Shown piece after piece: positions 11,005-24,264 of a stretch of 64,000 nucleotides of DNA; position 1 is the first letter of the stretch, and each line of letters starts with the position of its first letter. The notes under the pieces are model-generated. The model was not told the DNA's origin. It was given only the letters and a program-made list of their open reading frames with translations, and did not search any database. This DNA is from Fodinisporobacter ferrooxydans (GTDB lineage: Bacteria > Bacillota > Bacilli > Tumebacillales > MYW30-H2), in contig NZ_CP089291.1 in assembly GCF_022818495.1 (NCBI RefSeq), positions 921,536-985,535 on the forward strand, in the 5' to 3' direction. The position numbers and the translations under genes were made by a program.

Positions 11005-11089
11005 CATAAAAAAACAGCTATCCTTTTACAGATAACTGGCCGGTTGCACTACTTTCTCCAAACTACCCAAGTGCCCAATATAAGGATAG
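11005..11089 (-). promoter_or_regulatory. Structured leader with terminator-like closing stem
   Basis: On the minus strand an 8-bp closing stem CTATCCTT/AAGGATAG (11089-11082 with 11025-11018) encloses about 56 nt. Inside are a GCAC...GTGC stem and a near-palindromic AACCGGCCAGTT. A TTTTTTT run follows at once (11014-11005). The gene for the secreted protein starts about 50 nt further on. This is the architecture of a riboswitch or attenuator in front of a gene. The interior does not match any riboswitch consensus I know, including cyclic di-GMP-I. Confidence 0.5.
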
Positions 11090-11292
11090 TTTTTCATCGC
11101 ATTCCATTATTTTTATTTTATAGTATTTCTTGCAAAATATATAGTATTTTTTTATAAAAATTACTAATTGATGGGGTTTCGACTTCATCAACCCGGTATA
11201 GCGGTTTGGCAAATATCATGTGAAAACAGCGCGTGTTTATGTTATCGTATAAGCAACAACACATTGAGACATAACGGAAAGGATGTTAGGGT

Positions 11293-22787: not shown

Positions 22788-23165
22788 TTAAAAATGCAAA
22801 AACAAATCTGCACTAGCTGCCTCGTTTAAAATCCATTTGATCGGTTTGCTTTCGACATTCCAATCTGTGTCAACCGCATCTTGATCTACGATAATAAATC
22901 TGACTCCCATTTCGGAGGCGATGGATAAAAGTTCTTGAATGGAAGGTGCGCCAAAATCACTTAATGCATTTGCCAAATATCCTCTTCCTTTTGAAGGAAT
23001 GGGAATATAGTTGGAATTGAGAATATCTACGCCGTCTCTGGCAAAAGCCAGAACAACTGTCGCACCTGATGATACTGCGCCAACTGATATATTTAAAGGA
23101 GGATACGCCGACTCAAGATCACTGTGCAATGCCATGATAACAACCTTTTTTGTATTCAATTCCAT
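22788..23165 (-). CDS. DsrE-like protein
   Basis: This 125-residue protein resembles the DsrE/DsrF-like fold: KKVVIMALHSDLESAYPPLNISVGAVSSGATVVLAFARDGV at the start and a C-terminal LLSIASEMGVRFIIVDQDA helix-strand unit. It has no cysteine at all, so it cannot act as a persulfide carrier by itself. It lies 6 nt after a second DsrE-like gene; such proteins are often subunits of one complex. Role in sulfur metabolism is likely by family only. Confidence 0.7.
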   Translation of the reverse strand: MELNTKKVVIMALHSDLESAYPPLNISVGAVSSGATVVLAFARDGVDILNSNYIPIPSKGRGYLANALSDFGAPSIQELLSIASEMGVRFIIVDQDAVDTDWNVESKPIKWILNEAASADLFLHF

Positions 23166-23171
23166 CCCCCA

Positions 23172-23516
23172 TTAATAACTTAATACTGCATCAGCTTCAT
23201 ACGCATAATTCAAGAATGTAACAACTCCCGCAAATTCTACTCCTTCGAAACACTTTAATTTGCTTGCCAGCATCACATTCATTTGACATGCAAACATTTT
23301 TACTCCTGACAGCAAGGCGGATTTTAGAAGAAGCAGAATGTCAGTATTCATTTCTTGAGTCATTTCTCTTGCAAAATCTTCATCCAATACTCTTGCTCCA
23401 TCCAGGTCGAAAAAAATCATGATTTCCTCATTTTTCGACTTTTCTATTGCCTCGAAAAGAACTATTGGCGCATTTTCACTTTTCGTCACAAAATAGATCG
23501 TCCGTTTTTCAGCCAT
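23172..23516 (-). CDS. DsrE-like protein with cysteines
   Basis: This 114-residue DsrE-family protein keeps two cysteines, in KMFACQMNVMLASKLKCF. The first falls where the family's sulfur-accepting cysteine usually lies. It is the upstream gene of the pair and starts near GGGTGTGA. A sulfur-relay or redox role is probable from the family, and the nearby thioredoxin fits that. It could equally be one of the many DsrE-like proteins of unknown function. Confidence 0.7.
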   Translation of the reverse strand: MAEKRTIYFVTKSENAPIVLFEAIEKSKNEEIMIFFDLDGARVLDEDFAREMTQEMNTDILLLLKSALLSGVKMFACQMNVMLASKLKCFEGVEFAGVVTFLNYAYEADAVLSY

Positions 23517-23637: not shown

Positions 23638-23799
23638 ATGAGGATGTCCCAAAAGGGTGACTCTGAATGAGACAGTCCCAAAATATGAATAAAGAAGCCT
23701 CCAAAACCACTACAAAAGTGGAAATGGGGGCTTCTTGTATAAATTATTAGCTAAAGTGGGACGCCAAAAATCTAAAAATGGCTTTTGGAACAGCCTCAT
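23638..23799. mobile_element. 162-bp MITE-like element or insertion sequence remnant
   Basis: Imperfect terminal inverted repeats of about 18 bp (ATGAGGATGTCCCAAAAG and CTTTTGGAACAGCCTCAT, two mismatches) bound 162 bp that encode nothing. A diverged internal copy of the terminus (GAGACAGTCCCAAAA) begins near 23669. A hairpin, AAGAAGCCTCC...GGGGGCTTCTT (23691-23735), fills the middle. The ends resemble IS1182-type termini, so it is probably a non-autonomous derivative. No clear target duplication was found. It separates the thioredoxin from the DsrE pair. Confidence 0.65.
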
Positions 23800-23820: not shown

Positions 23821-24120
23821 TTATTGAAGATAGGTACGAATATTGGACTCCGGTTGAAATCCGACCAATGGATCCTGTGGTTTGCCATTTTTGAATAAAA
23901 TCAGCGTCGGCAGCCCCATGACGTTATATCTTCCCGGCAATTCCGGATTTTGATCGGCATCGACATATGCAAAATGAATATTGCCATATTCCCCTTCCAG
24001 TTTTTCGACGACTGGCCCCAGCCGTTTGCAATACGGTCACCAGTCAGCGGAGAAAAAAGCGAGCACCGGTTTATCAGATTTTAACAATTCGTCAAATTGC
24101 ATTTCGTTTACATGTTTCAT
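23821..24120 (-). CDS. Thioredoxin-fold protein with in-frame TGA at the active site (putative selenoprotein)
   Basis: Read through one TGA, the frame encodes 99 residues of an ordinary thioredoxin-fold protein. It begins MKHVNEMQFDELL, has a beta strand VLAFFSADW, then the active site TGA-P-Y-C, then KRLGPVVEKLEGEYG, FAYVDADQNPEL, and the cis-proline motif MGLPTLILFKNG. The TGA (24039-24037, codon 28) takes the place of the nucleophilic cysteine in the W-C-x-x-C motif, giving W-U-P-Y-C if read as selenocysteine. The 71 codons after it are intact and end in TAA. AGGGAG precedes the ATG. A hairpin follows the TGA at SECIS-like distance. A nonsense mutation or sequencing error is the alternative. 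Confidence 0.7.
24008..24025 (-). promoter_or_regulatory. Candidate bacterial SECIS hairpin
   Basis: Eleven nucleotides after the TGA, ACGGCTG and CAGTCGT pair over 7 bp (one G-U pair) around a GGGC loop. The apical loop lies 19-22 nt downstream of the TGA and opens with G residues. Bacterial SECIS elements typically have a short stem whose loop sits about 16-37 nt downstream with a G early in the loop, so the geometry fits. The stem is short and chance pairing is possible. Confidence 0.45.
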
Positions 24121-24264
24121 TGCACCATTCTCCCTTACTCGAATTTATGTTTCCACCAACAGTTTATGTTTCCAGCAAGCCTGACCATTCTTCAGCTGCA
24201 ATCAAATCTCTGTATAGTTTTCCCTTCTCGATAGAAACCCATTCATACAAAACGAGACTCCTCT

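Follow-up and report, generated by a model that had tools for sequence, protein, structure and literature searches.

In the 64,000-nt stretch of DNA that was analysed, hereafter referred to as the window, the minus strand carries a thioredoxin frame that runs from an ATG (24120..24118) to a terminal TAA (23823..23821), with a TGA at codon 28 as its sole interruption (Table 1). With only this TGA read differently, the frame encodes the protein MKHVNEMQFDELLKSDKPVLAFFSADW(U)PYCKRLGPVVEKLEGEYGNIHFAYVDADQNPELPGRYNVMGLPTLILFKNGKPQDPLVGFQPESNIRTYLQ*, in which the TGA occupies the place of the nucleophilic cysteine of thioredoxins in a W-U-P-Y-C motif. A first-pass annotation of the same DNA had reported the codon number, the W-(TGA)-P-Y-C motif, the intact frame from ATG to TAA and a hairpin 11 nt after the TGA, all of which were borne out by the sequence; the strand, which had been left unstated, is the minus strand. 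Close to the gene, neither a terminator nor a promoter above chance level was detected.

Table 1. Features of the predicted selenocysteine thioredoxin locus and its downstream neighbours, in window coordinates.
Feature	Position	Strand	Basis or detail
Predicted selenocysteine thioredoxin gene	23821..24120	-	99 codons plus terminal TAA; single in-frame TGA
Shine-Dalgarno-like AAGGGAG (putative)	24130..24136	-	ATG 9 nt further on; direct sequence reading
TGA codon 28, predicted Sec, nucleophile of U-P-Y-C	24037..24039	-	same codon TGA in 17 further genes
TGC, Cys31, resolving cysteine of UxxC	24028..24030	-	sequence; invariant in family alignment
Candidate bacterial SECIS hairpin	24008..24025	-	7-bp stem, 24025-24019 with 24014-24008; loop GGGC, 24018-24015
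Pro71 codon, cis-proline opposite active site	23908..23910	-	sequence; invariant alignment column
DsrE-like protein, downstream (context only)	23172..23516	-	PF13686, E=4.3e-7
Second DsrE-like protein (context only, weak match)	22788..23165	-	PF13686, E=4.7e-5, just under cut-off

The family assignment of the protein was examined by profile searches and structure prediction. The protein matched Pfam family PF00085 (Thioredoxin) with an E-value of 2.6e-24 and 85.6 bits against a cut-off of 23.5, and AlphaFold predicted a thioredoxin fold with a mean pLDDT of 94.4. The best solved matches in Foldseek were thioredoxins with TM scores of about 0.9-0.95 (0.95 to 3hhv), so that the family HMM score, the fold and the cis-proline all place the protein among the thioredoxins. 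The fold, the length and the cis-proline are common to TrxA (WCGPC), yet with Cys written for Sec the protein scored 83.3 bits with the TrxA equivalog model TIGR01068, below its curated cut-off of 96.8. A Sec glutaredoxin would also have a UxxC site within a thioredoxin-fold protein, but no glutaredoxin family reached its cut-off whereas the thioredoxin family did. None of the Sec-specific NCBIfam models matched the protein at its cut-off. Our reading of the locus, to which we assign a probability of about 95%, is that it encodes a cytosolic-type single-domain thioredoxin with predicted selenocysteine (Sec) insertion, in which Sec would be the attacking residue of U28-P-Y-C31.

Selenocysteine machinery, TGA-bearing relatives and the candidate hairpin

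The window genome consists of one contig of 4.86 Mb, in which selA, selB, selC (tRNA-Sec) and selD, the genes that the first-pass annotation had proposed to look for, were all found. The selA gene was matched with an E-value of 1.1e-157 and also by TIGR00474, SelB is a complete 638-aa frame with a SelB wing domain, and tRNA-Sec scored 60.5 bits against a cut-off of 47 and was also found by ARAGORN. The selD gene matched TIGR00476 (E=1e-125) when its own in-frame TGA, in K-A-G-U-G-C, was read through. This selD gene (L034, 9702-10763) is itself a TGA-containing selenoprotein gene, and a small hairpin, AGGUCC-GGC-GGACCU with a GGC loop, lies 3' of its TGA, making it very likely that the cell has at least one other selenoprotein.

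The TGA-bearing family comprised 18 thioredoxin genes in 17 genomes of the class, each with TGA at the codon-28 position and no other stop; they include genes from a class sample and from searches around two of its genomes. An orthologue from another family of the same order (G002) is 69% identical to the window protein and has TGA at the identical codon. The active-site motif of the family is mostly WUP(Y/H/G/S)C. SelA was present in 17 of 17 TGA-bearing genomes versus 85 of the 400 genomes sampled from the class, a co-occurrence that is partly phylogenetic and, because the relatives are not independent, counts as support and not as a formal probability. In the tree, a branch with 100/100 support separated the TGA genes from the WCGPC thioredoxins found in these and related genomes, and the TrxA-type protein of the window genome (L004, encoded near selA and 33% identical to the window protein) fell on the opposite side. 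The TGA-gene side also held L117, the sole WCPGC gene, and a long-branched WCPDC protein, L005. At the TGA site, Cys is encoded in two relatives, L117 and L011; the L117 genome has SelA, so loss of the Sec system does not account for its Cys. As is typical of a bacterial selenoprotein, the in-frame TGA lies at a redox-active Cys position, and TGA homologues (17 further genes) and Cys homologues (L117 and L011) are aligned at this one site.

The hairpin, ACGGCTG-GGGC-CAGTCGT, folded as had been described, with a 7-bp stem and a GGGC loop; it starts 11 nt and its loop 18 nt after the TGA. These dimensions agree with the bSECIS model, whose small apical loop has G in its first two positions and lies 16-37 nt away from the UGA (PMC13188914). 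In the window gene alone, the hairpin did not exceed chance: the 55-nt fold gave a z of +0.55, the 31-nt fold was equalled by 14 of 200 shuffles, and the same stem was formed by about 6% of synonymous recodings of the window peptide. The hairpin is meaningful because it is conserved in relatives. In the 11 genes that share this register, 98.7% of the hairpin cells were paired, and pairing fell to 17-57% when the partner strand was slid by 1 to 3 bases. One stem pair showed a two-sided switch from A-U to G-C in five of these genes, the 3' base of which would be, as judged from the codons, at the third position of a Val codon, where the change is silent. The loop began with G in all 11 and always started 18 nt after the TGA. 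The hairpin was broken in both Cys-coding relatives, with five of seven pairs left in L117 and three of seven in L011, even though L011 is identical to the window gene at 19 of the 20 bases that begin at the active-site codon.

A second hairpin type, GAGRCC-GGU-GGUCUC with a 6-8 bp stem, was observed in L102, L104, L105, L106 and L116. Its GGU loop lies 23 nt after the TGA, five bases further than in the first type; the stem hardly varies, so covariation is uninformative for these five genes.

Taken together, the Sec machinery, the conserved TGA and the conserved hairpin with its compensating change supported the selenoprotein reading put forward in the first-pass annotation. On this reading, the ribosome would meet the UGA at codon 28, the hairpin 11 nt further on would tether SelB with Sec-tRNA-Sec, and Sec would be inserted in place of termination. 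The product would be a thiol/selenol-disulfide reductase whose Sec selenolate attacks a substrate disulfide or persulfide; the mixed selenenylsulfide would be resolved by Cys31, and thioredoxin reductase would restore the selenol.

Gene neighbourhood and possible role

The DsrE-like genes next to the window gene had been remarked on as a family that includes known selenoproteins. Both frames are open without a TGA, and the genes were therefore rejected as selenoprotein candidates and provide no evidence of Sec. About 300 bp separate them from the Sec thioredoxin gene, and this interval holds a short element with IS-like ends. The element, at 23640-23797 of the window, is about 158 bp long with IS-like inverted ends GAGGCTGTTCCAAAAG / GAGGATGTCCCAAAAG, and is possibly a MITE or an IS remnant. 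The G002 orthologue is preceded by genes for a metallo-beta-lactamase protein, TusA and DUF302, with a CsoR-family repressor on its other side, and the same set flanks a half thioredoxin gene in G004. The window gene and the G002 gene each have a class II aldolase gene nearby. No sulfur genes were seen in the surroundings read of two other members, and a CsoR-family gene lies near a third member, on L093; a persulfide role is thus suggested for part of the family only. Elsewhere in the window, a Cyclic di-GMP-II riboswitch was found at 11029-11113 of the minus strand (59.6 bits against a cut-off of 53.5).

Because a sulfur-relay gene cluster surrounds some of the orthologues, we infer that the cellular role of the window thioredoxin would be that of a disulfide/persulfide reductase, whereas the neighbouring genes point less firmly to the handling of persulfide or sulfane sulfur as such. 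A model for the latter is S. aureus TrxP, a small thioredoxin-like protein with a WCPDC site that reduces protein persulfides (PMC6196236). It is likened to the window protein by the form of its active site, W-x-P-x-C, but has Cys where the window protein would have Sec; its reported activity makes the persulfide idea testable. That the Sec protein serves mainly persulfide or sulfane-sulfur reduction in the manner of TrxP, and not general disulfide reduction, is conceivable but rather unlikely. The sulfur gene set around the G002 orthologue and in G004, and the DsrE-like genes adjoining the window copy, are in keeping with such a role. However, the cluster is not retained in other members, the element with IS-like ends parts the DsrE genes from the thioredoxin, and the window genome has a separate WCPDC protein, L005, which could not be placed in the tree (branch 2.96).

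Sec thioredoxins are already known as a kind. The thioredoxin PF00085 UxxC is a catalogued selenoprotein, with WP_010956703.1 (PMC13188914, PMC9312934), and an early survey reported Sec thioredoxins from Geobacter, Anaeromyxobacter and Treponema denticola and listed only three selenoprotein families for Bacillales (PMC1794560). As in the window protein, the catalogued form is a single domain with Sec for the attacking Cys of CxxC; by their descriptions, the window branch is set apart by its mostly WUP(Y/H/G/S)C motif and its Bacilli hosts, the class being judged from gene content and from relatives that resemble spore formers. The window gene, which almost certainly uses Sec, joins a branch conserved across Bacilli. 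Possibly new are the reach of this WUPxC branch in Bacilli and its two hairpin registers, of which no description was found in the literature searched, although this does not prove that none exists. We further propose, very tentatively and with more doubt than conviction, that WUPxC is a distinct Bacilli selenothioredoxin subfamily for persulfide/sulfane-sulfur reduction, in which the SECIS was rebuilt one or more times in another codon register inside a single homologous family (a G-first four-base loop 18 nt versus a GGU triloop 23 nt from the UGA). The clade, together with its natural hairpin-less Cys versions and the two registers in one family, provides a clean comparative set for studying what a thioredoxin gains by using Sec and how SECIS elements shift position in evolution.

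Selection on the frame and the reading of the TGA

The codons 3' of the TGA were under purifying selection in all pairs tested. In this region, dN was 0.26 and dS 1.24 between the window gene and L035, and dN was 0.006 and dS 0.49 between L104 and L105, indicating that translation extends past the TGA. The alignment of homologues, which had been suggested earlier as a check, revealed the same TGA within intact frames in the relatives, and decay was not seen.

A Sec thioredoxin gene can readily be taken for a broken one, and a TGA lies one base from TGC or TGT, so that the locus could be regarded as a thioredoxin pseudogene created by a recent nonsense mutation; the truncated copy in the relative genome G004 is also in line with this. 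The conserved lone TGA in 18 genes of 17 genomes and the low dN/dS 3' of it refute this explanation, against which the full Sec system of the genome also stands, and we regard it as highly improbable. The fresh TGC-to-TGA change that the first-pass annotation had left standing, like a sequencing error, is implausible given the same TGA in 17 genomes. Because the TGA is conserved, gene callers that halt at it would lose a real redox enzyme. Readthrough of the TGA as some amino acid other than Sec, whether through suppression or an altered code, would account for the open frame and nothing more, and is scarcely credible, as TGA occurs only at the catalytic Cys, which is Cys in L117 and L011, tRNA-Sec is present, and all TGA-bearing genomes are SelA-positive.

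Several further genes were observed around the family of Sec thioredoxins. In G004 (L051), the orthologue consists of the C-terminal half only; the N-terminal half including the TGA is gone, with the junction close to where the DUF302 gene ends. Either a real deletion or a fault of the draft assembly may account for this, and the retention of only this half suggests that a Sec thioredoxin gene can be lost. G908 carries a second, divergent TGA thioredoxin (L118, 1480-1794) with U-T-T-C in place of U-P-G-C. A peptide-pattern scan with Cys at the active site returned mainly Cys proteins, including the relative L011, and a plasmid search returned ordinary thioredoxins only. When 399 genomes of the phylum were searched with the strict DNA pattern A-D-W-U-P-x-C, just two others turned up, L097 and L098. 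L097 was rejected as a chance match with stops in frame, and L098, a longer and divergent thioredoxin-like TGA frame, was left out of the family count. The latter (around 1510, in another class of the phylum) reads ADW-U-PAC and is possibly a separate Sec thioredoxin-like protein.
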